The notes under the pieces: model-generated | The model's input: only the letters and a program-made list of their open reading frames with translations | Database searches by the model: none | What the model was told of the DNA's origin: nothing | Position numbers and translations under genes: made by a program | In this document: positions 2,265 to 64,000 of the stretch, piece by piece | Layout: every line of letters begins with the position of its first letter | How positions within the stretch are numbered: position 1 is the first letter of the stretch | Origin: Bryum argenteum | Taxonomy: Eukaryota; Streptophyta; Bryopsida; Bryales; Bryaceae | Length of the DNA stretch: 64,000 nt | Reading direction: 5' to 3' | NCBI GenBank assembly: GCA_037043015.1 | Contig: CM073321.1 | Coordinates: 31,164,101 to 31,228,100 of the forward strand

Positions 2265-5165
2265 ATAGCCCAACCATACCACGCAGTGCAGAGCACGCTG
2301 GGTAGAGGCACGCTGGGTAGAGGGAGCCTTTGAGCTCGGCATTAATAGAAGCAGGGCCGACAAGGAGAAAATTTCCAAACAAATATAAATTCAGTCAGAC
2401 AAGTGTCAGACTTGCGTCGACGCAAGTATTGCACTCGTCCGACCAATTCTAATTTCAAAATCCTCAATTTGACAATCAAGCATCAAGACCAACATGCCAA
2501 AACGATCCGCCAACAACGAAGATCAGAATCTTGGCTCAGCGAGAAGCTTCATCGCCCAGGGTGGTGAAGACTTGGTTCCAACATTAAGCCCAACCCGGAG
2601 TACGCTGTGCAAGGGGAGCCCTGCAGCTCGGAATTGACAGCCCTGTTAGCCCAACCATACCACGTTGTGCACAGAACGCTGGGCAGAAGGAGCCAACGAG
2701 CTCCGCATTGCCAAAAGCTCGGCCGACAAGGTGAAAATTTCCGAAAAAAATGAAATTATGTCTGCCAAGTAATAGACTTGCGTCGACGCAAGTCTTGCAC
2801 TCCTTCTACCAATTCCAATTTCAAAATCCACAATTTGACAATCAAGCATCAAGAACAGCATGCCAAAACAATCCGCCAACAACGAAGATAAGAATCCGGG
2901 CTTAGCGAGGAGCTTCATTGCCCAGGGTGGTGAGGACTCGGTTCCAACTGTAAGCCCAACCCAGAGCACGTTGTGCAAGGGGAGCCATTGAGCTCGGCAT
3001 TGACAGCCCAGTTAGCCAAACCATACTACGGTGAGGAGAGCACGCTCGGCAGGGAGAGCCTACGAGCTCGGCATTGACAAAAGCTAGGCCCTCAAGGTGA
3101 AAATTTCCAAAAATAATGAAATTCAGTCGGACAAGTGTCAGACTTGCATCGACGCAAGTCTGGAATTCTTCCGACCAATTCCAATTTCAACGAGGATCAG
3201 AATTGGGGCTAAGCGAGGAGCTTCATCGACCAGGGTGGTGAGGACTTGGTTCCAACTGTAAGCCCAACCCCGAGCACGCTGTGCAAAGGAAGCCCTCGAG
3301 CTCGGCATTGACTGCCCTGTTAGCCAAACCATACCACACTGTGCAAGCACGCTGTGCAAGGGGAGCCCTCGAGCTCGCCATTGACAGCCGTGTTAGCCCA
3401 ACCATACCACACTGTGCAAGGGGAGCCCTCGAGCTCGGCATTGACAACCCTGTTAGCCCACCATACCACGTTGTGCACAGCACGCTAGGCAGGGGGAGCC
3501 TACGAGATTGAAATTGACACAAGCTGGGCCTACAAGGAAAAATTTCCAAAAAAATGAAATTCAGTCGGACAAGTGTCAGACTTGCGTCGTCGCAAGTATT
3601 GCACTCGTCCGACCAATTTCAATTGTAAAATTCTCAATTTGACAATCAAGCATCATGAACAACATGCCAAAACAATCCGCCAACAACGAAGATCAGAATC
3701 CGGGCTCTGCGAGGAGCTTCATCGCCCAGGGTGGTGAGGTTTTGGTCCCAATAGTAAGCCCAACCCCGAGCACGCTGTGCAAAGGGAGCCCTCGAGCACG
3801 GAATTGAGAGCCGTGTTTGCCCAACCATACCACGCTGTGCACAGCACGCTGGGCAGGGAGAGCCTAACACCTCGGCATTGACAAAAGCTAGGCCGACAAT
3901 GTGGAAATTTCCAAAAACAATAAAACTCAGTCGAACAAGTGTCAGACTTGCGTTGACGCAAGTCTTGCACTCGGCCGACCAATTCCAATTACAAAACCCT
4001 CAATTTGACAATCAGGCATCAAGAACAACATGCCAAAACAATCCGCCAACAACGAAGATCAGAATCCGGGCTCAGCGAGGAGCTTCATCGCCCAGGGTGG
4101 TGAGGACTTGGTCCCAATAGTAAGTCCAACCCCGAGCACGCTGTGCAAAGTGAGCCCTAGAGCTTGACATTGACCGCCGTGTTTGCCCAACCATACCACG
4201 ATGTGCAAGCACACTGGGTAGGGAGAGCCAACGAGCTCGGCATTGACAAAAGCTAGGTTCACAAGGTGAAAATTGCCAAAAAAAAGGAAATTTAGTCCGA
4301 CAAGTGTTTGACTTGCGTCGACATAAGTCTGGAACTCGTGCGACCAATTCAAATTTCAAAATCCTCAATTTGACAATCAAGTATCAAGAACAACATGCCA
4401 AAACAATCCGCCAACAACTAAGATCAGAATTCGGGCTCAGAAAGGAGCTTCATGGCCCAAGGTGGTGAGGACTTGGTTCCAACCGTAAGCCCAACCTCGA
4501 GCACGCTGTGCAAGCACGCTGTGCAAGGGGAGCCCTCGACCTCGGCATTGACAACCCAACTAGCCCAACCATACCACACTGTGCAAGCACGCTGTGCAAG
4601 GGGAGCCCTCGACCTCGGCATTGACAACCCAACTAGCCCAACCATACCACACTGTGCAAGCACGCTGTGCAAGGGGAGCCCTCGAGCTCGGCATTGACAA
4701 CCCTGTTAGCCCAACCATACCACGTTGTGCACAGCACACTGGGCAGGGGGAGCCTACGAGCTAGGCATTGATTGAAGCAAGGCCGAGAAGGTAAAAATTT
4801 CCGAAAAAAATGAAATTTAGTCGGACAAGTGTCAGAGTTGCGTTGACGCAAGTCTAGCACTCATCCGACCAATTCCAATTTCAAAATCCTCAATTTGACA
4901 ATCAAGCATCTAGAACAACATGCCAAAACATTCTGCAAACAACGAGGATCGGAATTGGGGTTCAGCGAGGAGCTTCATCGCCTAGGGTGGTGAGGACTTG
5001 GTTCCAACTGTAAGCCCAACCCCGAGCACGCTGTGCAAGGGGAGCCTCGAGCTCGGCATTGACAGAAAGTGGGCCGTGAAGGTGAAAAATGAAAATAAAA
5101 ATGAAATTGATTCTACTTGACAGCCCAACCATGAGCACGCTGTGCAGAGCAGGTTGTGCAGGACA
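2265..5165. repeat. Satellite-like tandem array, about 365-bp unit
   Basis: Seven recognisable anchors of the phrase GATCAGAATC..GGCTCAGCGAGGAGCTTCATC lie near 2520, 2887, 3188, 3690, 4058, 4422 and 4944. Spacings are about 300-370 bp, with two units expanded to about 500-520 bp. The expansion comes from an inner 73-bp repeat (AGCCCAACCATACCACACTG...) that is tandem at 4561-4710. Each unit carries GACTTGCGTCGACGCAAGTC or a close variant, a perfect 20-bp palindrome, at about 2409, 2769, 3149, 3588, 3949, 4311 and 4839. Short ORFs crossing the array follow the repeat and are not genes. Confidence 0.88.
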
Positions 5166-5989: not shown

Positions 5990-6065
5990 GCCATCGGGCC
6001 GGCGCCTCTCAGCCCGCCTCTACCCGGCCCAAACCCGCCTTGACCCCGCCTCTTCCCCCATTAAC
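5990..6065. repeat. CCTACCCGG-type minisatellite, left part
   Basis: C-rich degenerate repeats (CTCTACCCGGCCCAAACCCGCCTTGACCCCG) end exactly at the CACTA insertion point. The same type of sequence resumes at 20483 and again at 21916, so this was one roughly 500-bp tract before two insertions. Confidence 0.7.
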
Positions 6066-7260
6066 CACTATAAGAAACCTGCGTTTTTAACGATGTTGTA
6101 AATGATGTCTAAAAAGACATCGTAGACATTAATTCGGATGTCTTATAGACGATAAGACATCCTAGACAGCTCAAATGTCTAAGCAGACGTCTAAAAAGAC
6201 ACGAAAATGTCTTAAGATCGAAGATGTCTTAAGGTAATTTTGGAATGGTAAAAAGTGTGCCACGTAGGTGCCACGTAGATGACACATCAGCTTGAATTCA
6301 ACGGGCAGTGCCACGTGGGGATGAAATTCATCATGATGTGGAATTTTACATGGTCCCACGAAAGATGACATGGCGGCGCCAGAATCCTACGTGGACCCTT
6401 TGAAAATCCAAAGTGGCACGCGGGAAAATCTCACGTGGCACGCGGGAAAATCCGACGTGGCACTCGGGAAAATCCGACATGGCACGCGGGAAAAGTTGAC
6501 GTGGACCAGGGAAAATGACGTGGCATGCCACGTCAGCATATTTCGGGGGGTTTCATGCTCATCTCATGATAGTATTAGACATGACTTAAGACGACTTTAA
6601 TGTCTTCGAAGACAACTTAGATGTCGTACAAGCTGGCTTGCAAGACGTATGCAATGTCTTACAAGATATCTTAGAATACATGTTTTATGTCTTATAAGAT
6701 GTCGTACAAGGTGTTTGAGATGTCTTTGAAGTGGTCTTTCAAAATGTGATAGACTAGTAGAAATCCGACGTGGAACCCGGGAGAAATTACGTGGCATGCC
6801 ACGTCAGCATTTCTTGAGGGCTTTATGCTTCAGTCAAGTTGATTTCGGACATCACGGAATACATCTTTGATGTCATACAATACATCTTATATGTCTTAAA
6901 TGATGTTTGAGTAGACATTGTATATGACTTTCTACATGTCTCAGAAGACATCCTTTATGGCTAAGAAGATGTCTTGGAAGACATTTGAGATTTTTTTGGA
7001 ACGCATCATAGATGTCTTCTAAGATGTTCAAGAAGACATTGTAGACGTCTTCTAAGATTGTTTTGAAGACATCTTGTATGTCTTTGAAGATGTCGCGCAA
7101 GACATTTTAGATGTATTATAAGATGTTGTACACAACATCCCAGATGTTTCTCAAGATTTCTTAGAACACATCGTTTATGTCTTCCAAGATATCTTGGAAG
7201 TTGTCTTTAATGACATAAAATTAGTATTCCAAAATGTCTGAGGTGATGTTTAAAGATGTT
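6066..7260. promoter_or_regulatory. CACTA left subterminal region with GATGTCTT motifs
   Basis: From 6098 to about 6240 and from 6570 to 7260 the sequence is packed with GATGTCTT, AAGACATC and close variants on both strands, one every 15-25 bp. By analogy with En/Spm these are the likely binding sites of the tnpA product, needed for excision and for control of the element. The binding itself is inferred. Confidence 0.7.
6405..6535. repeat. 22-bp minisatellite with G-box-like ACGTGG cores
   Basis: About five head-to-tail copies of a 22-bp unit built on ACGTGGCACGCGGGAAAA interrupt the left subterminal motif field. Related GCCACGTAGGTG/GCCACGTGGGG stretches lie just upstream at 6258-6320. The ACGTGG core resembles a plant G-box or ABRE site. 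Confidence 0.8.
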
Positions 7261-7542
7261 TATAATCGTCTGCCGGAACATCCTTTCAGACATGCAAGTC
7301 CTCGCATTTTGTTTTGATAGATGTTTTAAACCATGAAAACTTCTATACGTGGTGTTTATAACTTTACACATAGCCTCTTCCATTTCAGAGGTTTCACAAA
7401 CACATATGTATATCAGATCACACACAATTCCAAATGTCATATACACTTATAACTGCACGTCCAAAATCTGTTAGTGAAATATTAAAAACAGTACATATGA
7501 TCACATCACAATTTACATAGCATAAGTGTAATTGTTTGTGAC

Positions 7543-10500
7543 CTAAAAAAACCAAAAATATGCAATTGAATAACATCTTCTATGCAAAACACCATAGTAG
7601 TGACCTCCAAACCTTTCTTTGTGGACAATATCTTCATTTCTTCTTTCACGACTCGATCTTATTCCGGCGCCCTTCTTTAGTTTAGATGTTCCCTGTTCCC
7701 TTTGATGTGTCGGCCTTTGCCGGTTTGGACAATCCTGCAGACTTTGGCACTTGTGGGCGGTGTTGTCGATTTGTTTCGGACTTAAAGTGGCGCCCACATA
7801 TTCCGTGGGTGGAGCGGGTGTTTGAAAAGCGTCCTGATCATAAAATAATTTGATAATGAAGCAACATCACAATATAAAACATTCAGTATATATAACATGA
7901 TTCCACCATAAAACAAGGTCAATTATCTGCTCAGAAGATATCTTATACTAACAAAATATACTTGTATTGTTAAATACTTAACATCGCGTTCACCTATCAT
8001 AGATACTCACAATATATCTACTCTAGTATTACCTGCTCAGAGAGCACGGGATGAGGCGACCCCGCTGCAGACACTGGAGTTATGGCATCCTGAAACTCTT
8101 GCATTACTTCAACGGCTGTTGTGATGAGTGCCACTCCATCTCCCTCTCCAGAGCCCCCTCTTTTTGTCTGCTGCACCGGCATGCCTCCTTCCTTAGGCTT
8201 CATAGCGCATATGTTGACATTGTCTCTATCGCTATGATTGGACACGCTAGATGCTCCATGGTTTGGAGATGGTGGCCTAGTGTTCTCCGTGGTACCTGTC
8301 GGTGTTGGATTGACCTGCAATAACACGGGTATTGTAGGAACCGACATATCCATCACCTGCTGCACAGTCGAGTCAGTCTGTGAGGCCTTCACAGCTATCA
8401 GTTGTCGAAACATCGCCTCCAACCGCTGGTTTGAGTCATCAATCTTGGACTCCAGACGTGTGTTGGATGCTTCGATCTTCTCCTCCAAACGCTCATTCGA
8501 TGCCTCCATCTTCGCCTCCAGGTCGTCCATCCTTGTGTCTAAATCCCCGAGATCATCGCCATCACTGTCATTCTCCGCTTCCAGTCGCTTGTACTGCTCC
8601 TGTATCTCCTCGTTGATCTCAGTCTCGAAAGGTTCACGATGAAGTTTCATACACTACAACATTACAATCCAACATCACTTAAGAAGATACATACTTTTTC
8701 AAAAATATTTGTACAAACATTTCGAAAGACATTGAATTATACTTTTTGTAAGACACCTGTAGAGACATTAGCCATGACATCTGTTCAGACATCTCCATAG
8801 ATGTCTGCAAAGACATACAGAAAGACATACATAAAGACATTTCTAAAGACGTCTTCATAGTCAACTTCGTAGACGTCTGTTAAGACATCTGAATTCGCAT
8901 AAATAACATCTACAAAGACATTGGCAAAAACATAAAAACTTACTAGTTTCATTAACGCTGCGTCCCTGATTGATTGTTTTGTTGATGCCTTCAGTTTCTT
9001 CCCCCTCGACACGGACCGCATTCTCTCAGACATACCCTTCGAATTTCCAATTCTCCTATTTTTCGCAAGTCTGTTCCACTCTTCATCTGTCAATTCGGCA
9101 GGTTTATGTTCTCCTTTGTCTATGAGTTGGCCATACAGATATCGCCGGTTTGTCAGAGTCTTGTTTGCCCTTGGTGTTATCCAAGCTCGGTCCACAGTCT
9201 GCATTGAGCCGGCCCCCCTCACATCCCATCCTACAAACAAATGTCATCATAGTTGAGTCATGAAAACATTTAGTAGAACAACGTTTTATCCATTTTCATC
9301 ATGTACTAAGAATTCATAGTTTTATTCAGAAACAAATATATGTACCTTCCAACAAGCGCGTAAAAAACTGTTCCCTCAATTCGTAAGGCTGGTCACGCAT
9401 GTTGTAGCAGGGATCCAAGGCCCTGGTCATCAACCGTAGATCCTGCTCAAACGCCATTACAAGTACTCCGTACGGGCGGCCCTTCTCATCTACAGTGAGA
9501 GGCTTCTTCACAGCTGCAGTAACAGGAACTTTTGAACGGTCAGTTTTCCGTTCTACTGATTTGGGACGTTGCACCGGAACTTGAATCTCTCTAACGTCGT
9601 CAGAGCTGTCATCTGTGTCTTCATCGTCATTGTTCTCATCGTCCTCTTCATCTTCCGTTGTTTCATTTCTGCGGCTGAACAAAAAAATCATTGTCTCAGT
9701 AATCGTTAGAAGAAAAATCATTGTCTTAGTAAATGTTATAGAGGACTAAATGTTTTACTTACCGAGAGTCTTGCACCTCCTTGATGCGCTTACTGGAGGT
9801 AGGTTGCACAACTTGTAGCTTTGCTTTACCTTTAGCGTATGTCGATGCCTTCAAGTCTTGGCGATCCTTGGACCTACGCTCTTGAATTTGCCAACGAGAT
9901 GCATCATCTCCGTCGCTGCTCTGCTCAGCCCTGCGGGGCGACCGTTTGCGCTTAGGTGCACTCTTCTTTGTCATCCTGAGACGCCGTGCTGGCCACACCA
10001 CAAAAGCCTCCAAGTTCTTACCCTGAAACCACACACATTCATTAAGACATAAACTTATACATATCTAATGACATCGTAGACATCATATTAGATATCTCTG
10101 ATGACATCTTAGACAAGGTTTTTAGACATCTGTGATTACGTTTCAGACATTCTTTTAGACATCTCTGATGACATCTTAGACAATTTTTTTAGACATCTGT
10201 GATGACATCTTAGACATTCTTTTAGACATCTTTGATGACATCTTAGACAAGGTTTTTAGACATCTGTGATGACATCTAAGACATTGTTTTAGACATCTAA
10301 GACATTTTTTTAGACATCTCTGATGACATCTTAGACAATGTTTTTAGACGTCTGTGATGACATCTTAGACATTCTTTTAGACATCTCTGATGACATCTTA
10401 GACAATTGTTTTAGACATCTGTTATGACATCTAAGACATTTTTTTAGACATCTCTGACGACATCTTAGACAAGGTTTTTAGACATCTGTGATGACATCTA

Positions 10501-13415
10501 AGACATTCTTTTAGACATCTCTGATGACATCTTAAACAATGTTTTCAGACGGCTGTGATGACATCTAAGACATTCTTTTAGACATTCTTTTAGACATCTT
10601 TGATGACATCTTAGACAAGGTTTTTAGACATCTGTTATGACATCTTAGATATTCTTTTAGACATCTCTGATGACATCTTAGACAGCGTTTTAGATATTCG
10701 TGATTAGACATCATAAAACACATTTTAGACAAACTTGTAGACATGCTTTCAAACATCTAGAAAGTAAACAAAGAACTTGTATCAAACATCTAAATAATGA
10801 GCTACAAATATAGATAGCAATCAATCAAATAACTTTAACAATATTACAAATTGCAACACACTGAAAATCATCACATACCTCAAAATTACATTCAACTCAT
10901 TTAAAAAAAACCAACATCAAGAAAACACCTTAGAAGCTGTACTTTCTCTAAAAATGAACACTAGACAATTTTTAGACATCTCTGATGACATCTTAAAGAT
11001 CCTTTTCAAAATCATTTAAGTCATTTTGACATGATTGTACACATCCTTTCAAACATATAGAAAGTAAACAACGTACTTGAACCACACATTTAAATAACGA
11101 GCAACAAATTATAGATAGCATTTAAGCAAATAACTTGAACAAAATTACAAACTTGAAGAAAACTAAAAAGTGCAATACACTTTTACAAATTGCAAGACAA
11201 TGAAAAGCATAACGTACCTCATTCGTACATTGGACTCAATTAAACAAAACCTACATCAGTAACCCTTAAATTTTTGTTGTTGCAAAACGGTCTAAGTCAC
11301 AAATTTTGACCTTCCAAGCTCAAAAAATCTCAATCTAAGCAGTATTTAAGGATTCAAACGTAAGATCTCAATCTTCACTTGACATTATTCTCACATACCA
11401 AATTTGAACCGTTTATTTGTTCCTCATTTGTGATATTATAATGTTCAAAGTTGGCTGATTTTTTCCTATACTCGAACCTCCAAAACCCGTTTTGAATTTT
11501 CAGGAAATTTTGGGGTTAACCAGCTCAGCAGCCGTACTTTATCTAAAATCTTAAAATTAGACATTCTTTTAGACATCTCTGATGACATCTTAGACATCCC
11601 TTTTAGACATCATTTAAGTCATTTTAGACATTATTTCAAACAATTATAAAGTACACTTCTAGACTTCTAGACTTCTAGACATTCTAAACATTCTTTCAAA
11701 CAATTAGAAAGTAAATAAAGTACTTGTATCAAACATCTAAATAATGAGTTACAAATATAGCTAGCAATCAAGCAAAGAAATTGAAGAAAATTACAAATTG
11801 CAACAAAGTATCAGAAATTGCAACACAGTTAAAAGCATCACCTACCTATGAATTACATTCAAGTCATTTAATCTAAATCGTTATCATTAAACAGCGGAGA
11901 AGCCGTAATGTATCTAAAGAATGAAAATTATACAATTTTTTAGACATCTTTGATGACATCTTAGACATCATTTTGAACATCATTTAAGTCATTTTAGACC
12001 AACTAGTAGACATGCTTTCAAACATCTAGAAAGTAAACAAAGTACTTGAATCAAACATCTACGTAATGAGCAACAATTTTGATAGCAACAATTTTGATAG
12101 CAATGAAGCAAATAACTTGAAAAAAATTACAAACTTGAAGCAAATTACAAATTGCATCACACTATTACAAATTGCAAGACAATATTACAAATTGCAACAC
12201 ACTATTACAAATTCTAACAAAAATTGCAACACATTATTACAAATCAAAAATTGCAACACACACGGCAGCAAGAGGGGAAAGATTACAGCAGCAGGACGGT
12301 GAGGCGTCAGCACCGCAGCAGGAGGGAGAAGGCAGCAGAAGGGTGAGGCGGCAAAAATGCAGCACGAGGGGGACGGCAGCACTTCGACAGCAGATTCACG
12401 AGGGGGAGGACCGCAGCTTCACAAGGGGAGCACCGCAGCTTCACAAGGGGAGCACCGCAGTTTCACAATGGGAGCACCGCAGCTTCAGGAGGGGGAGGAC
12501 GACCACACGACCTGCGAAGGAGCTGCAATGGGAGTGGGACCCTAATACGAACCCCGCGTGGCCCAATGCCGCACGACCCGCCCCATTGATGCCCCCGGCT
12601 GTCGGGCTGACAGCGCCGCAGGGGTTGCGGCTGCATTAATGCCAGGACTCTCGGCCGCCAGCACCCATCACATCCCAGCACCCATCACATACCAGCTTAA
12701 TCACCCATCACATACCACCTTAATAGCTGACAACGCCTGCCAGAAGGCCGGCCGCCCGCACCCCTAGCTGCCCTGCAAAAGGCTGACATTGTGCCTGTAA
12801 TGTGCCTTCATATTCGGAGCATGTGTCATGTGAAGCTGAGCATGTGAAGCTGACATGGCTGCCGCCCACGACCTACATGATACAAGGCCCACCATATCCC
12901 TCAGGGTTTCGAGCTGCGGCTGAGCCGCCGCCCAGCTGCCCTCCCCTCGCCACCCCATTGCCGCGTGCTCCCCCCCATGCCCGCCTCCCGCCCCATACTC
13001 GCCCGCGCGCACGCTCCATTCCCGTGCGGCGGACCCCATTACCGCCCGCTTGCAGAATGCTGCGGATTCGACAAAATTTGAAGTTTACGCAAAATGTAGT
13101 GATCCAGATGCATACCTTCTTAGCATTTCCTGTAGTAGCAGGAGTTGTCGAGAATGTGAGGGAAGGTACTTGAGTTTCGTGAAGTGCCTCCACGTGTTGC
13201 AAAAACCTAGAGCTGCGTCGCAATTGGGTAGTGCAACTTGCACTTTTCTTCTTCATTGTTGGTGGAGGAGGAGTGACTCTTGATATTTGATCAACAAAGT
13301 TTGTGAAAACGTGGAGAGCTGCGTGCGTAACCTCGGCTCCTCGCACTATCTCTGGTACACAATCTCTACAAACTATACCTCTATCATGATCAAAGAATTG
13401 TGTAGTGCCTCCCAT
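7543..13415 (-). CDS. tnpA: CACTA tnpA-like protein, six exons, 695 aa
   Basis: Exons are 13415-13116, 10022-9763, 9674-9346, 9230-8944, 8653-8033 and 7833-7543 (stop). Every junction has GT/AG ends, for example AAG|GTATGC to TTTCAG|GG, and CAG|GTAATA to GATCAG|GAC. All phases agree, giving 695 residues without a stop. Residues 1-100 form an N-terminal exon (MGGTTQFFDHDRG). Residues 101-220 are basic then strongly acidic (KKSAPKRKRSPRR; DEEDDENNDDED). Residues about 235-390 match the plant Transposase_24/TNPA-type domain (KGRPYGVLVMAFEQDL, PYELREQFFTRL, LTDEEWNRLAKNRR). Residues about 415-470 are a heptad coiled coil (EEKIEASNTRLESKIDDSN), followed by a Pro/Ser-rich tail. The likely role is subterminal-repeat binding and regulation of the element. 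Intron 1 (3.1 kb) holds a dense array of the presumed binding motif. Confidence 0.82.
10050..10740. repeat. About 33-bp tandem array of AGACATC motifs inside tnpA intron 1
   Basis: Roughly twenty copies of a 31-34-bp unit (TGATGACATCTTAGACA plus TTCTTTTAGACATCTC/GT variants) run almost without interruption. Each unit holds two or three AGACATC/GACATCTT cores. The tract lies wholly inside the first intron of the tnpA-like gene. Tandem units with no unique spacers exclude a CRISPR-like reading. Confidence 0.9.
10700..12265. repeat. Four diverged direct repeats in tnpA intron 1
   Basis: Segments starting near 10700, 11005, 11600 and 11960 repeat the same order: motif run, CATTTTAGACA, CTTTCAAACATCTAGAAAGTAAAC, an AT-rich part ending ATTACAAATTGCAACACA, then a TACCTC-type stretch. 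Units are about 300-400 bp and diverged. The last part (12125-12260) expands ATTACAAATTGCAACAC into a short tandem run. No coding potential was seen. Confidence 0.75.
12266..13050. repeat. GC-rich block with short tandem repeats inside tnpA intron 1
   Basis: The composition shifts abruptly to GC-rich. At about 12410-12500 there are four copies of a 22-bp unit built on CACCGCAGCTTCACAAGGGG. At 12660-12725 there are three copies of CACCCATCACATACCAGCTT-like units. The Pro/Ala-rich ORFs crossing the block look composition-driven. The abrupt change suggests captured host DNA, but no host gene is recognisable. Confidence 0.55.
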
Positions 13416-14062
13416 GTTTCAATGTAATGAAGTGCACTAGTTTAGGGTTTCATACTACCCTAAGAAGAAAGTGGGGGCCTAACGTATTTAAAAATATCTA
13501 TCTACAGTGGTAGAGTGTGACCTAAAAATTTTGAGCCACGTCGACTACGAGTTTGTGTAACTTAACATCAGAACATATACATAGACATTTATGCAGACAT
13601 CTACTAAGACATTATCTTATACATTTTCTAGACATCTTCGAAGACTTTTGTTTAGACATCCTGGTTACAGTAGAGGTGACGAATGGTAACAACAAGATGT
13701 TGTTACTGAAATGTACGAATATTCAGTAAAGGGCAGGTAAACCCCTATAGTCGAGTACCCTGAGAATTTCTGAGAAGTTCGAAAGTATGAAAATATTGAC
13801 CATTACATTCTTTGATTTTAAGGATCACCTTCAAAAAATAAAATATTATGGTGTTCAATCCGATTAAAAATTTGAAGTGTAGGAATTAATATATTATGTT
13901 TTAATGGCTTAGAATTTGATTAAAGAACAAGGCCATGTTGACAATTGATTTTAGTATTCACATTGAAAATCTTGTAAGAAATAATCCCATACTAATATAC
14001 TTTTGTTTTAAGATATTTACTTATGTGTTGTGTGTACATGGCCTCTTAGTCGTGACTCTTAC
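13416..14062. promoter_or_regulatory. Shared intergenic region of the divergent CACTA genes
   Basis: The 647 bp between the two start codons must hold both 5' leaders and probably both promoters. At 13570-13670 a cluster of AGACATTT/AGACATCT motifs faces both genes. This places presumed tnpA binding sites at the promoters and suggests autoregulation, as is known for En/Spm. The rest (13740-14000) is AT-rich, with no single convincing TATA box. Confidence 0.5.
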
Positions 14063-17000
14063 ATGTACATGGCGTTACACGGGGAAGCATGGTCAGATTC
14101 GGAATCCGTGGGAGAGTGTGATCATCCATATGAGCCGTATCCATTCGAAGAGTATGAGGTACAACACGCAAATTACTTGGAGTGCCTCGTGTTCAAACAT
14201 CTTGAAAATATGTATTTATTTGAACGTGGTCTGTTGAACACTGAAGCTTTTATTCCAGATCCTGAAGATGATTTTTACCACGGGAACATGTATACTATCT
14301 CATGGTTCTATGACGGATGTTATCCGTTTGAGAATTGGGAGGACAACTATGAGCGCCTTCCTATGAGAGAGTATGTATTGCAATGACAGAGGAATAGTAT
14401 TAAGTTTCAGCTTACAAGAGTACTATGTGTTATACAATACAATAAATAAAATTACTGAGAGCTTGTGCTTATAGATTTCTATGTACGAACAATATGTATG
14501 AAGGATGATTATGTCCATTGGCCAATTGAACATGTATATGTGTGTATGTTAGAAATTGTTGATACTTGAGTTGTCCTTATTAGTAGAGAGGTCTTCTCAA
14601 TATTTGATTGTACGCATTTACATGTACACGCTTAATAAATGTATGGGGTGTCTTGTAGTGTTACGGAATGCATAAGTTAAATAGTGTTTACGTATTTTCG
14701 GCAGAGACAGCTACATTTAGCGCTGGGTTCTGATCATTATTTTTGTAGAATGTTTCAGAGATTTTAAGGAGAAAAATTTGCTGATTACGGAGAAACTGTA
14801 TTCATCCAACTGCATTGCTATTGACGGCTGTACAGAACAAGACAATTCATAGTGGTAAGTGACCTACACATGCATATGAGGATATATGTCTGTAGAGATG
14901 TCATAAACGATGTCTGTAGAAACGTTTGTGCGTCCGCATGGATATAGTCATCGACATTTAAGAAAGGCATGAAGAAATTTGACATTTTTCAATCATGTGA
15001 ACATAATCCTTGTGGTATTTCATTAAGATGAGAATTGCTCAAGTTCTGAGTTCCGTTTGCCAATTTCTGTCAGCGAACTTGTTTCAATGAGTACTCACCG
15101 GATTCGCAATGGCGCAAGACTCCGAATCGATGCTGATGGACGAACTATGCGTCACATACCACTTGGTGACCTTATCCTCCAGACAGAGCTACGTGTGGCT
15201 ACAACGAAGAACATAACATCATACTACTGTCCATGCCGCAATTGTCATGGAGGTCTACGACAACGAATTGCAGTAATTCGAGAGCATCACGCGTCTGTTG
15301 GCAGGGACCCATATCTCACGAAATCAATCATAGGAGGCGATCCACCTGACGGATATGCACCGGACGGTATTTGGGTGGAGGATATTGTATACGACAACGA
15401 CGTAGTAGATGATGCTCATGAGCTTCTCGCTGGTGATGTCCACGAAGACGTCCGTGAAGACATCCCAAGTCATGAAGATGTCAGTGAAGACGCAGCTCCA
15501 CTAGATGAGTTTCACGACGTCCAACGCTAGGTCATGGAAGCTTTTGATCGTGCTGATGCACTCCACATGGATGCAGCAGGGCAACCGATTGTGCTTGAGA
15601 ACGATGAGGTGGACAACGATACAGTGGATGCCATGCGGCGCTTGTATGCGGAAGCCACAACACCGTTATACCCGGGATCAAAAACTAGCGTTGTATCAGC
15701 TACAATCGTTCTAATGAACATGTGCATTGTCTTTGGAGTGAGCAACAATTTCAGAAGTGAACTGTTGCGTTACTTGGCTGAAGACTTACTACCGGAGGGC
15801 AACAAGTTGCCAAGAAGTCATTATGTTGCTGCGAAGAGCATCCGACAATTGGGGCTGGAGTACAACAACATACATGCATGTCTTGATGGATGTGTATTGT
15901 ACAACGATGATCATGCGGAGTTGCAGAGTTGCCCGAAGTGTTCGAAGTCCCGATGGTTGGACGGCACGAATTCCATTCCAGCAAAGGTGATACGTCACTT
16001 TCCTCTGATTCCGCGCCTAAAACGGATGTGGAGATCGCCTGAAATTGCCACCATGTTGACGGGTCACACTAATCATATCAGTGAGGACGGCATCATGCGA
16101 TCAGTGGTTGATAGTCCAGCATGGAAGCACATCAATACAGACGCTGCGTTTGACAGCTTCGGACGTGAGGACCGAAACATGCGGTTGGCTTTAGCACTGG
16201 ACGGAGTGAATCTCTTCAAGTTGAGCAACACGAACTGGTCGACATGGCCAGTGCTGGTATTGATATACAATTTGGAGCCTTGGTTTGTCACAAAGAAGTT
16301 TTTTATTTCATTGTCCATATTGATATCAGGGAAGAAGTCGCCCACTGCAACAAACATTGATGTATATCTGCGTCCACTCGTGAACGAGCTACATCAACTT
16401 TGGCGAGGTGTACCAGCACAAGATTTTAGCCAACCAGTGGGGTCTCGAGGATTCTTACTACGCGGATTGCTCATGTGGACTATTTCAGATTATCCAGCAT
16501 ATGGCCTAATCTCTGGCCTCTCATGTAAGGGATATAAAGGTTGTCCATGTTGTGGTCCTGAGACGGATGCTCGTATGGCAAAGACCGAGGATTTGCGTGC
16601 GGACCGTACGACGAGGGGTTCGAAGATTGTGTATGGTGGAGTACGTCGATATCTAGGTCGTCAACATCCATATCGGAGATATACTCGGTTTAATGGCAAG
16701 CGTGAGATACGGACGGCGCCTGCAACTGTCTCTGGAGTAGACGTTATCCGTTACGCTGCGTGGCGGCAATCGTACCTAGACCTTGGTGGCCGTGAAGGGG
16801 CTGCGGGTGACCTTGTCCACAGCACGGGGGTGAAGCGTTTGAGTGTTTTCTTCGAACTACCGTATGGGCAGGTAGAAATGTGATTTATATGATGTTTTCA
16901 CAGTTGTCTTATGCACTATGAAGACGTCTTCGAATACATGCAGATAATTACAATTCAAACTTTGGATGTCTTTTTAGGCATGGAAAATGTCTTTGTAGAC

Positions 17001-19350
17001 GTTCCTGTAGACATTAATGCAAACATATAAAAATTACTATTACAAAATGAATTGTTTTTGCCATATTGACCATTCACTATTTCATACAGTAAGTCTAATA
17101 TTTTTTAGTGGTATGTTGTAACAGCATCTGAAGGTTCGACACGTCTTGGACGTCATGCACTGCGAGAAAAATCTATGCGAAAACATTCTAAAGACTTTGT
17201 TTGGAATGAACGACAGCCCAGGAAGTCGTCAAGATGTGCAGGACTTGAACATACGGCAGGAGCTCTGGTTGCAGCCCGCACGGCGCCGAGGTGACGAATA
17301 CTACATACCACAGGCTCCATACATTTTGAAGCCTGAGGAGAAACAAGAGTTTGTTCGCATAATTTCCAGTATACGCACTCCAACAAAGTATGTGGGGGCA
17401 ATTCACAAGCGGCTGCAAGACGGGAAATTGCAATACATAAAGACGCACGACTACCATGTCCTCATGCAGCAGGTACGCATTAGATACAGCAATGCACTAT
17501 GATTTAGAAGAAGTCCTTTCAAGACTTGTTTTTGAAAATTCAAACTGAATGTCTTGCATGTGTGATTCTCGATGTCTACAAAGACATCTTCATGTGAACT
17601 CAGACATGATAGTTGTCTTTGTAGACACCTAAAGACAGAAATTAAAATGCTCATCCTATTTTCCAGTTCTCCTGTTTCCAATGTCATAAGTTTCTCAATT
17701 TTAAAAGTGAAATTCATGATTGTATTTTCTGCTCTAGATACTCCCGGTCGCCATCCGGAACGTGCTCGACGAAGAAGTGCGGGCTGCGATCATTAAAATG
17801 TGCAGAGTTTTCCAGCGTATATGTGCTAAGGACATACGAGAAGACACCCGTGAATGTCTTATGCGGGACGTGGTGATGGCAACATGTGTGCTGGAGAAGG
17901 AGTTTCCACCAACGTTCTTGAACGTGATGACGCACCTCCCGGTGCATCTTGTGGAGCAACTGTTCATATGTGGACCAGTCCACTGCAGATGGATGTATCC
18001 GATCGAAAGGTACATGAAGACGTTGAAAGATTACGTACGCACATACGCACATCCTGAAGGGAGCATAGCGGAAGGGTATCGCCTTGATGAAATGCTTGGG
18101 TTCTGTACTGAGTACATGAAACGACATAGGTCAACAACATACCGTGTATGGGATGCAAACGAAGATGCCACCATGAATGACGAGATCTTGGGGCACAATG
18201 ACTCGAGTAAGCGCAAGATGTCCAATGAGCTACGAGGCTACGCACATGCATTCGTCCTCGACAACGCACCATGCTTGGAACCATGGCGAGAGTGAGTTTC
18301 TATACATTATTTTGGATTGTGAGGCTGCCATTTTAATTATCACCTGTAATAGCGGGCATTGCCGCATTGTAAATATGAATGATCCATTAAAACTTGGCGA
18401 CAACAGCAAATAATATTAGATGTCCTTAAAGACATCTCTTTAAACATTCAAAAATTTCCGTAGATGTCTTTGTGACATAATTGCAGATGTCTTACACATT
18501 GTCCAGATGGACAGTATAATGTCTTCATAGATGTCTCAGAACAGAAGTCAACAAGTAACGAGTCAGCACTACATTATTATTATGCTTTTGATTTGTCTAA
18601 TGACAAAAGGTGGGACTGTTGTACAGAGAATACATCATTGCAAAAGGACGTCGATGGCAAGAGAGAGAGGCATTTCGAGTACAGTCAAGACGTCATCGAG
18701 CGTCTGCACATGTGACGTACCCACCCGAGTTGAGGGATTTGCCATGCTTTGCAGATTGGGTGAAGGCACGAGTTTTGCAAGCAGAACATGCTGGTGATCA
18801 TTTGCATGAGGACGTGGTACAGTACTCATGTCCTCCGGAACGATTTGCAAACTCACATCGGCAAATGAATGCATTCGGGATGCATTTGCGTGTTCGGACG
18901 TCTGAGGGGGGTCTTGTTACACGAGACTCATGTGTAGTGGCCACGTATACACAACAACTGCGTTGGGGGATTCGAAATGGAAGGCCCATCGACCATACTG
19001 CTGAGCATGTGGGATATATCCAAGAGATACTGGAGTTGGATTACCGTAATCACTGCACCACGGTTTTGCTATGCGATTGGGTAAGAGCCTCACGGGATGT
19101 GCGAGTGCCCAGCATTGAGCGTGACAAGTACGGATTCAGCGTGGCAAACTTCAACTACATGGACAATAGGGTGCATCCAGATTCATTTGCATTCCCTTTG
19201 CACTGTCAACAGGTGTTTTTTGCAGATGACACCACGAGACGCGGATGGAAGATCATTTGCCGAACAGACGTTAGAGGTAGGCGTACAACATTACAACATC
19301 GGCACCCTGTGCCGAATGGGATTGCAATCGGCAATGACGAGGACTTTTGA
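14063..19350 (+). CDS. tnp2: CACTA TNP2 transposase, five exons, one in-frame TAG
   Basis: Exons are 14063-14370, 15074-16871, 17125-17472, 17738-18291 and 18627-19350. All have GT/AG junctions and agreeing phases (GAGA|GTATGT, CTGTCAG|C, GGGCAG|GTAGAA, CAGCAG|GTACGC, GCTCTAG|A, GCGAGA|GTGAGT, TTGTACAG|A), for 1243 codons. Residues 1-102 are a very acidic first exon. Residues about 150-210 match the TNP2-associated Cys region (YYCPCRNCHGG, GRDPYLTKSIIGGDPPDGY). Exon 2 carries the Transposase_21/TNP2 core (NIHACLDGCVLY, CPKCSKSRW, LIPRLKRMW, GLSCKGYKGCPCC). Exon 3 has the hallmark RHVLDVMHCEKNLCENIL, and exon 4 is DUF4218 (MTHLPVHLVEQLFICGPVH, RWMYPIERYMKTLKDYV). A TAG at 15528-15530 (codon 255) splits the frame; codons continue unchanged on both sides, so a CAG-to-TAG change is likely. 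If translated only downstream, the ATG at 15534 would give 987 aa. The first exon could also be a separate 107-aa ORF. Confidence 0.82.
15420..15515 (+). repeat. GAAGACATC-type motifs inside TNP2 coding sequence
   Basis: Inside exon 2 the DNA reads GATGTCCACGAAGACGTCC, GTGAAGACATCCC, CATGAAGATGTC and GTGAAGACGC in close succession. This is the same motif family as the subterminal repeats, and it is translated as a repetitive acidic run (HEDVREDIPSHEDVSEDA). The reading frame tolerates the motif, so it can be both coding sequence and a possible tnpA binding site. Confidence 0.65.
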
Positions 19351-19529
19351 AGCTTACAACCGGAGATATTGGAGACAGAGCCAATTCGGAGAGCAGAGGC
19401 GACGGGGGGGGTCTATGTTACGGCCGCAACAGACACAGTCAATGATGGTCAAATGGAAGAGGAGTACTGACCGATGTACTTTGTATTACAGTCAATATTG
19501 TAATGTATAGGCCCTTTGCAGTAGCAGAG

Positions 19530-20482
19530 GTACAGAAAGATGATTTTGCAAGACGTTTTTTCGGACATCCATTTGGATGTCTTTCGAGACATCTCGGCGT
19601 TTTTTTATGTAGACATTCATTCGGATGTCTACAGAGACATTAAACTAGACATGGTATGACACTACGACGCGTGTCGGATAGTCTGACGTGTATTTTTTTT
19701 TTGCATGTACATAAATAGCTGTAAATTCTTAAATTACTTATATGTCCACCTGTATTTTCAAATTAAAATATAATAAAATCGCATACATGTTACAAAAATG
19801 CTATTTTCTTCAATACTGCTATTTTATTTACGTAATATTATTTAAATAATATTATATTACTAAATCAAATTTTTTAATTAATTAAATTTTAAAATTTTAA
19901 AATTTTAATTATATTATATATATATATAATATTTATTTACTCATATAAATATATTTGCAAATTAAATTAAATTGATTAATATATTTTAATTAAATTTTAA
20001 AAATTCGACCAATGAAAAAAGCTTAGAATACAAAATAAATCTTCAAAAATAAATATTTCAAAAAAATCTGTTTTAGAAAATTAATTACAATGGAATACAA
20101 ATACAACATATTTAAAAGGATGAAGCTTTTTTCTTTTGATATTGCCAATCACGCCCATTAAGTTTTTTGCTTACCTCCGGGCTGCATTCTACCCCGCATC
20201 TTCGTAACTTTCATACTTTTATCCTTAGTGAAAACGGAATCCCTTGCCAACGTGGCATTTTGATGTCTATCGGGATGTCTTAAGGACATTTGCACAGACA
20301 TCCATGTCTCCAAAAACATCTTTTTGTTTGGTGATGTCTTCATGCCCCTCCAATCCAAAATGTGCCCGTTAGACGTACAGACATCCTCCCGTCTTCGAAG
20401 ACATCTTTTAAGACAGTAAGACATCACAAAATACATTAGACATTACACAAGACATCACAAAAAACAGGGTTTTCTTATAGTG
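19530..20482. promoter_or_regulatory. CACTA right subterminal region
   Basis: Motifs GATGTCTT/AAGACATC cluster at 19550-19650 and 20260-20450, mirroring the left end. Between them (19690-20110) lies an A+T tract with TATATA runs and no ORF. A 92-codon minus ORF at 20158-20436 runs through the motif field and is probably spurious. Confidence 0.7.
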
Positions 20483-20620
20483 AACCCTACGTCCTTACCG
20501 GGCCCGATTTCTTACCTACCCGGCTGTCCACACCCCTACCCGGCTGGCCCTGCCCCTACCCGGTTTGCCCCGCCCCAACCCGCCTAAACCTTACCCGGCT
20601 TGATTTCTTTCCTACCCGGT
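20483..20620. repeat. CCTACCCGG-type minisatellite, middle part
   Basis: Degenerate repeats of CCTACCCGGCTGTCC and CTTACCTACCCGG connect the right CACTA end to the following solo LTR. Confidence 0.7.
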
Positions 20621-21915: not shown

Positions 21916-22210
21916 CCGGCTGTCCCAATCTTACCCGATCGGCCCTGCCCCTACCCAGCTTGCCCCGTACCCCGCTTCTACCCGGCCCAAACCCACCCAG
22001 ACCCCGCTCCTACCCGCGTAAACCCTACCCGGGCCGATTTCATTACCTACCTGGCTAGCCCCGCCCCTACCCGGCTCGCCTCGTACCTTGACCCTACTCG
22101 GCTCGCGCCGTATCCGGGCCGAATTATGTACACCGTTCCCGGCCCAATTTTATTACCTACCTCGTCCCTGCTTGGGCCGAAATAATTACCTACACGTTTC
22201 TCCATACCCT
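21916..22210. repeat. CCTACCCGG-type minisatellite, right part
   Basis: This continues the tract seen at 5990 and 20483, with CTACCCGGCTCGCC, CCTACCCAGCTTGCC and GGGCCGAATTATTACCTAC variants. Confidence 0.7.
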
Positions 22211-50223: not shown

Positions 50224-51249
50224 TCACAAGTAAGGCCGTGTTGTTAGGTAGCAGGTACTAGATTCTAAAAGGACCAAACAAGCGGTGGCAAAGTTTGCCA
50301 GCGTGAAAGTTCGTACCTTTGGGATGCCACAACACGTAATCGCTGACACTGTATTGAATCGATTTGCCCCGTGTATGGGACCACTAAGCTTGATTCCACT
50401 ATTGATGACCAGTTTGTATAGTAGCGTGGTGACAGAGCTCGTCCAGTTGCTCAAGGTCCACGAGTCAGGCTGTGAGGGCGCGTGTTGGATCGGAATCACG
50501 GGAAGCGATCGATCGAAAATCAAAAGGATGTATTCAGTTGGCATGAGTGGATGGATGTCGTATACCAACTGAAAAAGAGAGTGGTCCGTGGCCACTTTGA
50601 AGGCGGTGCGGTACGTCAGCAGGATGGTCGGTAGTTGGACGTCCCAATTGGATCGACTTTTCTTCACTAATTTCTGGAGGATCGACACGATGATTTTGTT
50701 GGTGGATTTGGCCTTACTGTTGCCTTGCGGGTAATAGGTTGTCGATGTTGTATGGCGGAGTAGAAAGTGCTTCACGAGTGCCTCAATTGTTGAGTTGAGG
50801 AAGTAGCTACCTTGGTCACTGACCAAGTGAAGGGGGCAACGAAAACGTGTCAGGATCGACTCGTAAAGTAATGTTGCTGTCTCTTGGGCGGTATCGCCGC
50901 GGAGTGCTTGGGCCTCAACCCACTTTGTGGCGTAGTCGGTAGCCACCACGATATAGCGGTAGCCGGTATTGCGAGTTTTTTTGACGAGGCCGATGAAATC
51001 GAGTCCCCATTTTATGAAAGGTTTGGTAGGGAGGGAGGTGACTAATTTGGAAGAAACGATGGGCGGAAGACCGCCCGTGAGCTGACACTCGTGACAAGAT
51101 CTGCAGTAGATGATGGTGTCCTTGGGAAGAGTTGGCCACCAATATTCGACGTCGAGGATTTTGCAGACCGTGATATCGTGAGAGAAGTGGCCTCCAGAGT
51201 TGCTCTTGTGGAGCTCGCAATGAATCGATATCGATTTGCTAGAGCTCAA
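50224..51249 (-). pseudogene. Family B integrase region
   Basis: Part of the fossil gypsy element. Recognisable are the zinc-binding end (CRSCHECQLTGG), the catalytic core (KWGLDFIGLVKKT, VATDYATKWVEAQAL, LVSDQGSYFLNS) and the YYPQGNSKAKSTNK segment typical of Ty3/gypsy integrases. Confidence 0.88.
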
Positions 51250-51531
51250 AACTCTATGGGTGCAGTTGTCCGACCCAACTCAGTGGAGTCGATTGTTGAT
51301 GAGTTGACATAGAATGTGTTTACGCGCCAGTCTTTTGCGCTCCCCCTTGGGCATGGTTGGTGGAAAGGTACGGGTTTATAGATAGTCGATGATGGGGGTC
51401 AGGTAATCGGGTTCTCTCAAAAAAAGCTAGGCGTCGACGGTCTGGTCGAGGATGCCGATGGCAGGTTCAGCCCCCGCATTGCGTGAGAGGGCGTCCGCGA
51501 TACCATTTGATTTTCTTGCTTTATAAACTAC

Positions 51532-61308: not shown

Positions 61309-64000
61309 GTTGTAGAAAATAGGAGAGAGACACTCGTTGTAGTCACCGTAGCAGGATATGTTCAGTTTATCTTGGCAGAACGCTTGAATGTACGCCGTTG
61401 TTATCAATTGAATACAAAGGCCATGAGCCACAGTCTTTCTCTCCCATCCTTGTGTCTCCTCATCTCTCACCTGCTTACTCCGAACACCGAGGCTTGCTTG
61501 GTAGACTTCGGTAGTAACCTTAACTGCTGTCTTAGACGTTCTACACCCACGGTACCTTCATCGCTACAGTATCACCGAGGTTACCAAGGAAGGTCCGGTA
61601 GACAGCCGGACCAGGTTACGGGCTTCGGTGACCTCAGCTGTTGCCACGGTTAAACCTCGGTACCCCCCCCTCTTTTCCCTTCAAGATCAGTACTACCCAC
61701 CGATTCTCTTCGTGGGTAAAGTAAAAATAAGAAAGAAGAAGACGACTGAAATGCCCCTCCTTCCGCAGCACAACCAATGTTGCCAAAGTCAACGCTCGGC
61801 CTTTTTGGCTACTCCCTGCTGTCCCTGTTAGACCGAGCAAAGCTCGGCCTCCCTCGTTATCCACTGCCATCCCAAACCTGCTACCTCCAGCGGATGAGCT
61901 CGTAAAGCACTCCATCCTCGTTACCCAGGCTAACATTTTGGCGACCATCTTTGGGATGGAGTGTTGAGTCATCCAAAGAAAAAAAGAAACAAAAACGTCA
62001 AACACGACACAATGCCTCCACGAAAAGCAACAAAAGAACCGCGGAACCCGAGGAGGTTATACCCCAAGAAGACCAAGATACCACGAGAGAACTTCTCCAA
62101 TGGATGAAACAACAAATGACAGATTTGGTGGCAAAAAACGACGCCACCAATGCCAAGATCGAAATATTAAACTCACACTATCTCCAAGGGGTAGGAACAT
62201 CAACGACTATTCCGCCCATCGTTACCATGGCCGGACCATCACAGCTACCACCGATTGATCCAAACATAGCCGCTTCTATGGCATCAAGGGAAAGGGATCG
62301 GCTCATCAAGCTACCAAAGATACCTTACCCAATCTTTGATGACTCCGGAGATCCTGATTGGCACATACGCAGGTTTAAAGTAATAGCTCGAACCAACGGT
62401 GTTACCAGCACCGAAGACCTACAGAACATCTTTGGAACCACCCTTCAGGGCAACCACATCAACTGGTACATTGATTTCAAAGCCGAACATTTGTTGCCGA
62501 CATGGGAAGAAATGGAGCGTAGCTTTTTGCAGAAGTTCCGAAAGTTAAAAACAAGCTCGGAAATACTCCGAGCTTTAGGCAATATACAGCAAGAAAGAAA
62601 CGAACCTGTCGACAAGTTTTACGAAAGATTCAAACAACTGGCCGACAAACTCAGTCAACGGCCTGAAGAAGACTACCTATGTGAATGGTTCAAAAAGGGC
62701 TTGCTACCGTGGATACAACAGGGCATTATCATCCGCGGTGTAAAAAAGTTGCGGGAGATACTCACACGCCAATGACATTAGCGGGGAATTCGGCGTCATA
62801 GACAAAACACGACACACCATTGCTTCCGCTACCAAGAGTGCCTATCGGGGGACAAATGACACCATGCACTACTTGCGGCAAACTACATGCAGGACGTTGC
62901 TGGTTTTCCAATACACCTGCAAGAACGGAAGATACTCGGCCCACGCGAACAAAGGCAGCATCCATGTACCCGGAGGAAGTCGATGTAGACGCGTTTCAAC
63001 CAAACAGAAACGATGGCTGTTGGGAATGCGGATCCCCGCACCACCGACGAGGCCAATGCCCTGTGTTAAGACAAATAACAACCAACACCCGTGCTACCAC
63101 GGACACCAAGGCACATCCTGGCAGCACCGAAGCTACTGCCGGCAACAGAAAGGGGGGAGTTACACTTACCGAAGTCCACGGCACCAACGTGGCTACCATA
63201 AGTACAGCCGCGGTAACCACAAGATCTAAGGCTACCTTAGATAAAACCGATAAACATGTCATAGAACATCGCAAGCCTTTTGCGGAACAGCATTGGGAAA
63301 GATTGAACAAATCATGAACTCAAATTCAAAACGACCTGGAAACAACGGTGGTCCCAGAACTGCAACAAGTATTAGAAAAAACCGATGTGCGCATTACATT
63401 AGCCGATCTGTTGAAGATTAGCCCAGAATTGCAGACATACCTGCAAAATATGCACACTATCCCAACAAAAGGCACGACAACCGTGGAAATTAATGCGACA
63501 ACCATAGACACCGATGCCGCCGTCATACATGTCCGATTAGGACAACACCAACTGGCCAATGTATTAGTTGATGGAGGCTCCGGAGTCAACGTTATCAGTG
63601 ATCACCTAAGACAACAGTTGGGACTACCACACCCTACAACAAAGACAGATTCGTTTTGAGAATGGCGAATGATGCCCGGTGACCCCATTGGGAATACTTT
63701 CCACCGTGGCCATCGCAACTCACGGTATCTCTACACCGCAACCTTCGTCGTGATCGACATGCCGATGCAAAGACAATTTCCCTATGATTTTGGGCGGACC
63801 TTGGTTAAGAGACATGAATGCAATTCATGACCGGGCGCGAAAATCGATCGACCAAGATACGGAAAACAATGATCATTCCGTGGGCACCGTGCATCACTCG
63901 AGAAAAAGTCAAACAGATCGAATCGGTAGCGCACGACGGCTGGGGGGAAAGGTCTCACGCGACGAGCAAGAAGCCCTGGTGTTCCACGCCGACCCCAATC

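Follow-up and report, generated by a model that had tools for sequence, protein, structure and literature searches.

A CACTA element of Bryum argenteum with a short dyad motif recurring at 12-bp spacing in its ends, intergenic region and introns

The maize element Spm requires two proteins, TNPA, which binds its subterminal repeats, and the transposase TNPD (PMC2613891). TnpA activation of Spm has been correlated with demethylation (PMC10398659, citing earlier work). In VANDAL21 of Arabidopsis, the VANC21 protein binds short motifs that are packed in introns, intergenic DNA and terminal noncoding DNA, and brings about loss of methylation at these places (PMC5735166). Here we describe a CACTA element in a stretch of 64,000 bp from Bryum argenteum (assembly GCA_037043015.1, contig CM073321.1, positions 31,164,101 to 31,228,100 of the forward strand), which is called the window below and whose numbering is used throughout. 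Like En/Spm of maize, the element has CACTA ends, a 3-bp duplication, a transposase of the TNP2/TNPD type and a second, presumably regulatory gene. We consider it fairly likely that the tnpA-like protein encoded by this second gene binds a motif which is tiled at 12 bp across the ends, the intergenic region and the introns of the element.

Boundaries, insertion site and class of the element

The element occupies positions 6066-20482 (14,417 bp), as delimited by its inverted ends and an AAC duplication. The terminal 12 bp, CACTATAAGAAA, are perfectly identical and inverted at the two ends (6066-6077 on the plus strand and 20471-20482 on the minus strand), and a copy of AAC stands on either side (6063-6065 and 20483-20485), as had been stated in a preliminary description of this DNA. 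When the whole window was scanned for CACTATAAGAAA with at most one mismatch, two matches were obtained, both of which are element ends, compared with an expected 0.35. Since 6 of 100 shuffled sequences also reached two matches, the terminal repeats alone are not decisive.

Stronger evidence than the ends was provided by an empty site, which the preliminary description had proposed to look for at a paralogous minisatellite. A BLAST search using 150 bases of each flank joined with one AAC found an uninterrupted copy of the target with a single AAC at 21971-22080 on the plus strand, inside the window and 1.5 kb downstream of the element, and the alignment spans the junction with 93 of 118 columns identical and 9 gap positions. 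When we locally aligned 80 + 80 flank bases against this empty site, the join with one AAC scored 111, that with two AAC 104 and that without AAC 99, while the left flank alone scored 56 and the right flank alone 64. An insertion that duplicated 3 bp is thus supported by the empty site with its one AAC. The element inserted at AAC within a C-rich repeat.

The ends, the empty site and the Pfam matches described below support classification as a structurally complete CACTA (En/Spm-superfamily) DNA transposon; CACTA ends, a 3-bp duplication, Transposase_21 and subterminal repeats in direct and inverted orientation were all found. The preliminary description of a complete CACTA element with two genes holds as an observation, including its class and its ends, and is corrected below with regard to the size of the element, the tnpA-like label and the implied intactness, as TNP2 is prematurely stopped.

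Spacing and distribution of the motif

The motif AAGACATC/GATGTCTT keeps 12-bp steps within the element in both orientations. The element contains 22 of the 23 matches to AAGACATC in the window, compared with 2.3 expected window-wide and a maximum of 6 in 100 shuffles. For the spacing counts, we defined a dyad site as GACRT or its complement, took the dyad centre as its position and left out the array in intron 1 of the tnpA-like gene (10023-10760). The element outside this array contains 162 dyads (72 plus, 52 minus and 38 with a CG centre), 127 of which are noncoding. Forty-two pairs of dyads are 12 bp apart (19 in the same orientation, 14 in opposite orientations and 9 with a CG centre), compared with 2 pairs at 11 bp and 1 pair at 13 bp. 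For 24 bp the count is 23 pairs, and for the neighbouring distances of 23 and 25 bp it is 6 and 1, respectively. The flanks yielded 2 pairs at 12 bp from 168 dyads in 49.6 kb. Opposite orientations share the dyad-centre spacing, as expected of a dyad-symmetric unit.

Motif sites were found in both subterminal regions, in the intergenic region and in five of the eight introns, one of them weakly, when the number of dyads in each segment was compared with the mean of 300 shuffles. The left subterminal field (6066-7340, right border set by eye) contains 44 dyads against 6.8 in shuffles (maximum 14). On the right, the subterminal region (19531-20482) shows two motif clusters around a block of 21% GC, with 8 dyads against 1.4 at 19531-19680 and 12 against 1.2 at 20251-20482. 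Intron 4 of the tnpA-like gene (8654-8943) contains 12 dyads against 1.3 (maximum 5), mostly in exact 12-bp steps. In intron 1 of the same gene, a 33-bp minisatellite (10055-10698) carries the motif at 12-, 12- and 9-bp steps; the whole array has 46 dyads against 5.6 (maximum 13), and the remaining intron up to 12260 has 15 against 3.5. The cluster between the divergent genes, upstream of the tnpA ATG (13416-13700), comprises 6 dyads against 1.2 (maximum 5) and may have a promoter role. In TNP2, intron 1 (16872-17124) has 5 dyads against 1.0 (maximum 4), intron 2 (17473-17737), the weak case, 5 against 1.0, and intron 3 (18292-18626) 7 against 1.4 (maximum 5), while TNP2 exon 1 is not enriched in dyad number (12 against 10.8). 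The word GAYRTC was counted 61 times in the introns (4638 bp), 13 times in the exons (5499 bp) and 52 times in the flanks (49,583 bp), and the contrast between introns and exons without intron 1 gave p = 1e-4 per base. The preliminary description had attributed the length of the element to expansion of introns and subterminal repeats; the repeats were seen, and what had been missed is the one 12-bp spacing common to the ends, the introns and the intergenic region.

Several observations weigh against a binding lattice of this kind. First, distances other than 12 bp form lesser peaks, namely 9 bp (7 pairs), 21 bp (15 pairs) and 33 bp (15 pairs), the latter two being sums of 9 and 12. Second, the averaged site is AAGACATC with a left half (A 0.71) stronger than the right half (C 0.49, T 0.43), and the dyad is therefore imperfect. 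Third, the cluster adjoining the right end is irregular, with 3 pairs at 12 bp, and the shuffle maximum for TNP2 intron 2 (6) is above its 5 dyads. Fourth, the tnpA-like protein reaches the cut-off of no family, and its DNA binding is therefore a prediction. Finally, AGACRT is absent from introns 2, 3 and 5 of the tnpA-like gene (three of eight introns), and the intron-exon contrast without intron 1 reached p = 0.08 when other GA..TC words were used as a composition control. These last two points, together with the nature of the intron-1 array, a simple minisatellite with a 33-bp unit, also favour an explanation in which the internal motif arrays are non-regulatory, namely slippage products or spread subterminal copies which are tolerated in introns and purged from exons. 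We regard this explanation as unlikely; it is opposed by the recurrence of the 12-bp spacing in both orientations at diverged, separate sites (left end, tnpA intron 4, TNP2 introns, intergenic region and right end), by the centre, which is CA, TG, CG or TA in 45 of the 50 exact AGA..TCT sites of the element (intron-1 array included), and by the terminal repeat CACTATAAGAAA, of which no internal copy was found inside the element at up to one mismatch. We favour sites bound by the tnpA-like protein over non-regulatory arrays.

Other explanations of the pattern were tried and rejected. CpG deamination would be an attractive origin of the CA/TG centres in view of the 45 of 50 sites mentioned above, but we do not claim it, since CpG shows no depletion in the left subterminal region (observed/expected 1.03). 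In a periodogram, three segments showed periods of 11.2-11.6 and the right segment one of 9.5; a helical period was rejected, as the dyad count revealed exact 12-bp steps mixed with 9-bp steps. Stem-loops, which arise because of the inverted motifs, were rejected as the principal feature. DNA folding of five stretches gave z values of -5.8, -2.5, -0.9, -3.2 and -3.1, and the stem-loops were weak at the right end.

Two side observations concern the subterminal regions. The right motif clusters are separated by a 570-bp block (19681-20250) of 21% GC without AGACRT. In the left region, 22-bp units with ACGTGGC at 6241-6560 and 6750-6830 form a second type of repeat; ACGTGGC or its complement occurs 7 times in the first interval, 2 times in the second, 3 times at 6831-20482, 0 times in the left flank and 4 times in the right flank. 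We take this word to be G-box-like.

The tnpA-like gene and the TNP2 gene

The tnpA-like gene lies on the minus strand at 7543-13415. Our rebuilt model exactly reproduced the multi-exon model of the preliminary description, with 695 amino acids and no stop, and consists of six coding exons (13415-13116, 10022-9763, 9674-9346, 9230-8944, 8653-8033 and 7833-7543) and five in-frame GT-AG introns of 3093, 88, 115, 290 and 199 bp. From about residue 429, the protein contains an 11-residue repeat, encoded by a 33-bp coding repeat in exon 5 (8442-8521), which suggests a coiled coil. In Pfam, the protein showed sub-cut-off matches only, mostly to coiled-coil families and in addition to RESP18. Unlike second genes of the Transposase_24 type, it gave no match to Transposase_24 (PF03004) in the spliced 695-residue protein among the matches listed to E = 5, most of those above E 0.1 having been filtered out. 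The label tnpA-like, taken over from the preliminary description, is hence supported by position and structure and not by a Pfam Transposase_24 match. It has been described that tnpA is highly diverged (PMC8195511). As a separate observation, a GC-rich block (62%) of intron 1 at 12261-13115 carries short tandem repeats and lacks AGACRT. It follows exon 1 directly on the 3' side, a position that recalls the GC-rich control region of Spm.

The TNP2 transposase gene lies on the plus strand at 15087-19350 and was rebuilt with four exons (15087-16871, 17125-17472, 17738-18291 and 18627-19350) and three GT-AG introns of 253, 265 and 335 bp with a GC content of 30-35%. When the gene was searched against Pfam in five pieces, Transposase_21 matched with 198.4 bits (cut-off 28.6, E 1.1e-58) and DUF4218 with 120 bits (cut-off 27, E 5.9e-35). 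DUF4216 reached 29.9 bits (E 8.5e-7), 0.7 bit short of the 30.6 required. The transposase-associated domain gave a weak match in the N-terminal piece, with 13.6 bits against a cut-off of 27.7, and the piece 17125-17472 had nothing relevant in Pfam. This set of domains is typical of plants, and TNP2 contains the motifs ALDG, LDVMHCEKN and PEGSIAEGY, which are typical of the CACTA catalytic (DDE) triad.

The reading frame of TNP2 contains an in-frame TAG at 15528-15530 on the plus strand (codon 148 of 1137, final stop included), so that the earlier statement that both genes are readable is half right: Transposase_21, the four exons and the GT-AG introns were confirmed, and the TAG interrupts the gene. 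Shortly ahead of this stop, a motif tract inside exon 1 (15438-15490, plus strand), in which three dyads follow each other every 12 bp and another comes after a further 18 bp, encodes the acidic linker HEDVREDI...HEDVSED. We consider it most likely that the TAG is a true premature stop, although it may come from a sequencing error.

We also weighed whether TNP2 is unbroken, either by an unannotated intron that removes the TAG or by a separate short N-terminal protein with TNP2 starting at 15534, and we find this unlikely. A script scan found 41 in-frame GT-AG introns that could skip the TAG; the best of them have donor scores of 6 and 5 of 8, compared with 5, 6 and 5 in the accepted TNP2 introns, and splice signals therefore leave such introns possible. 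Likewise, the ATG at 15534, 3 bases past the TAG, opens a frame of 987 amino acids with the same exons, including the catalytic domains, and has G at -3 and +4, which we take to be a good start context. On the other hand, the 12 best TAG-skipping introns have a GC content of 49-53%, well above that of the accepted TNP2 introns, though intron 1 of the tnpA-like gene holds a 62% GC block. Moreover, the open reading frame (ORF) with Transposase_21 in CACTA elements of Chenopodium regularly has four domains, and the transposase-associated domain belongs to them (PMC8978399), in disagreement with a separate N-terminal protein. With the TAG as a true stop, the four-exon model lacks the intact transposase frame of an autonomous element. 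The stop separates the N-terminal part of TNP2 from the catalytic part, and for this reason full autonomy of the present copy is unlikely. Translation from the ATG 3 bases beyond the stop is possible.

Whether the copy is a decayed relic without current function has to be considered as well. The premature stop in TNP2, the DUF4216 score just under cut-off and the weak transposase-associated domain are in line with decay, while the other exons are open, all splice sites in both gene models are GT-AG, and the terminal repeats and the AAC duplication are perfect. Based on both sets of observations, we judge a relic to be somewhat unlikely and prefer a structurally complete element with a stopped TNP2.

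Upstream of TNP2, an ORF of 110 amino acids (14054-14386, plus strand) had no Pfam match at cut-off and may represent either a third gene or a frame that is open by chance. Single-sequence structure models of two window proteins, one of which is this ORF, had mean predicted local distance difference test (pLDDT) values of 42.1 and 32.7 and were uninformative. An Rfam search gave no match at the gathering score. For relatives of TNP2, part of exon 1 gave 4 pattern matches in viral contigs, and exon 3 gave 3 in viral contigs and 19 in genome contigs, none of which was confirmed by tblastn; these searches say little because the contig collections are non-plant. In the left flank, minisatellites at 2293-4771 have periods that include 365-366, 133, 73 and 60 bp. 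Elsewhere in the flanks, two ORFs, 50224-51279 on the minus strand and 61906-62775 on the plus strand, gave matches above cut-off to the integrase (rve, Integrase_H2C2) and gag (Retrotrans_gag, Ty3_capsid) of retrotransposons.

Proposed mechanism and comparison with known elements

TNP2, in which the transposase domain was found, would serve as the DDE transposase and make the cuts at the CACTA ends. The second, divergent gene most likely encodes a coiled-coil, probably dimeric protein, and a coiled coil would suit the binding of a dimer to a dyad. Such a dimer is predicted to bind the imperfect dyad, with a consensus near AAGACATC, in 12-bp tiling across the subterminal regions, where it may pair the element ends and recruit TNP2. 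Through the sites between the genes and in the introns, the tnpA-like protein would regulate its own transcription, and its coating of noncoding DNA may oppose host silencing, by analogy with TnpA of Spm and VANC21 of VANDAL21. A more far-reaching proposal, which we regard as unlikely, is that the element independently evolved a VANC-like, element-wide anti-silencing layout. The tnpA-like dimer would then polymerise on a lattice of 12-bp dyads in the ends, the intergenic region and the introns, and one motif would serve transposition, self-regulation and escape from methylation, and would even have been fitted into the coding part of TNP2, where it forms an acidic repeat.

Should the second protein bind along the 12-bp lattice, the element would show how a cis-motif spreads from the ends into introns under a spacing constraint, and it would join what is known of TnpA of Spm (excision and demethylation) with what is known of VANC (noncoding motif arrays). 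The 12-bp dyad spacing would also offer a testable signature for CACTA second genes without Transposase_24. In literature searches that included VANC as well as ferns and bryophytes, several of them confined to the papers ranked first and with most subscription papers outside their reach, we found no report of a CACTA subterminal motif in introns at fixed spacing, and priority is not claimed; the one paper containing both AAGACATC and CACTA was unrelated, judged by its title and abstract.

The element was initially called large for a CACTA, which is overstated, as the published soybean elements Tgmt* (20.5 kb, PMC2613891) and TgmR* (13 kb, PMC4219821) are likewise large CACTA elements with 3-bp duplications, and also have subterminal repeats, both direct and inverted, that can fold into stem-loops; the length of the present element lies inside the range of published ones. 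Tgmt* differs from it in having a single gene, which is large and complex, and in the greater length of its subterminal motifs, and the repeats are described for its borders (4 left and 24 right). The four exons of TNP2 agree with the proposed ancestral CACTA transposase gene, for which four exons are the minimum inferred from 64 transposases (PMC4158355). The element shares with En/Spm a subterminal motif of 12 bp (the En-1 motif is 12 bp, PMC2613891), but the motif sequence is different here and the motif also lies in introns. Furthermore, tnpA and tnpD of Spm are alternatively spliced, overlapping transcripts (PMC2613891, PMC8195511), whereas the gene models here are divergent and on opposite strands. 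With VANDAL21, the element has in common a short motif that is densely arrayed, often in tandem, in introns, intergenic DNA and terminal noncoding DNA (PMC5735166). Such dense arrays of a short motif in noncoding element DNA, the VANC type of arrangement, were found here with reservations on single introns, and differ in that the VANC21 motifs are described in one orientation, whereas both orientations share one 12-bp spacing in our element. VANDALs, which belong to the Mutator superfamily, also differ in encoding other proteins. Taken together, we infer that the present layout may combine Spm-like subterminal arrays with VANDAL21-like arrays in internal noncoding DNA.

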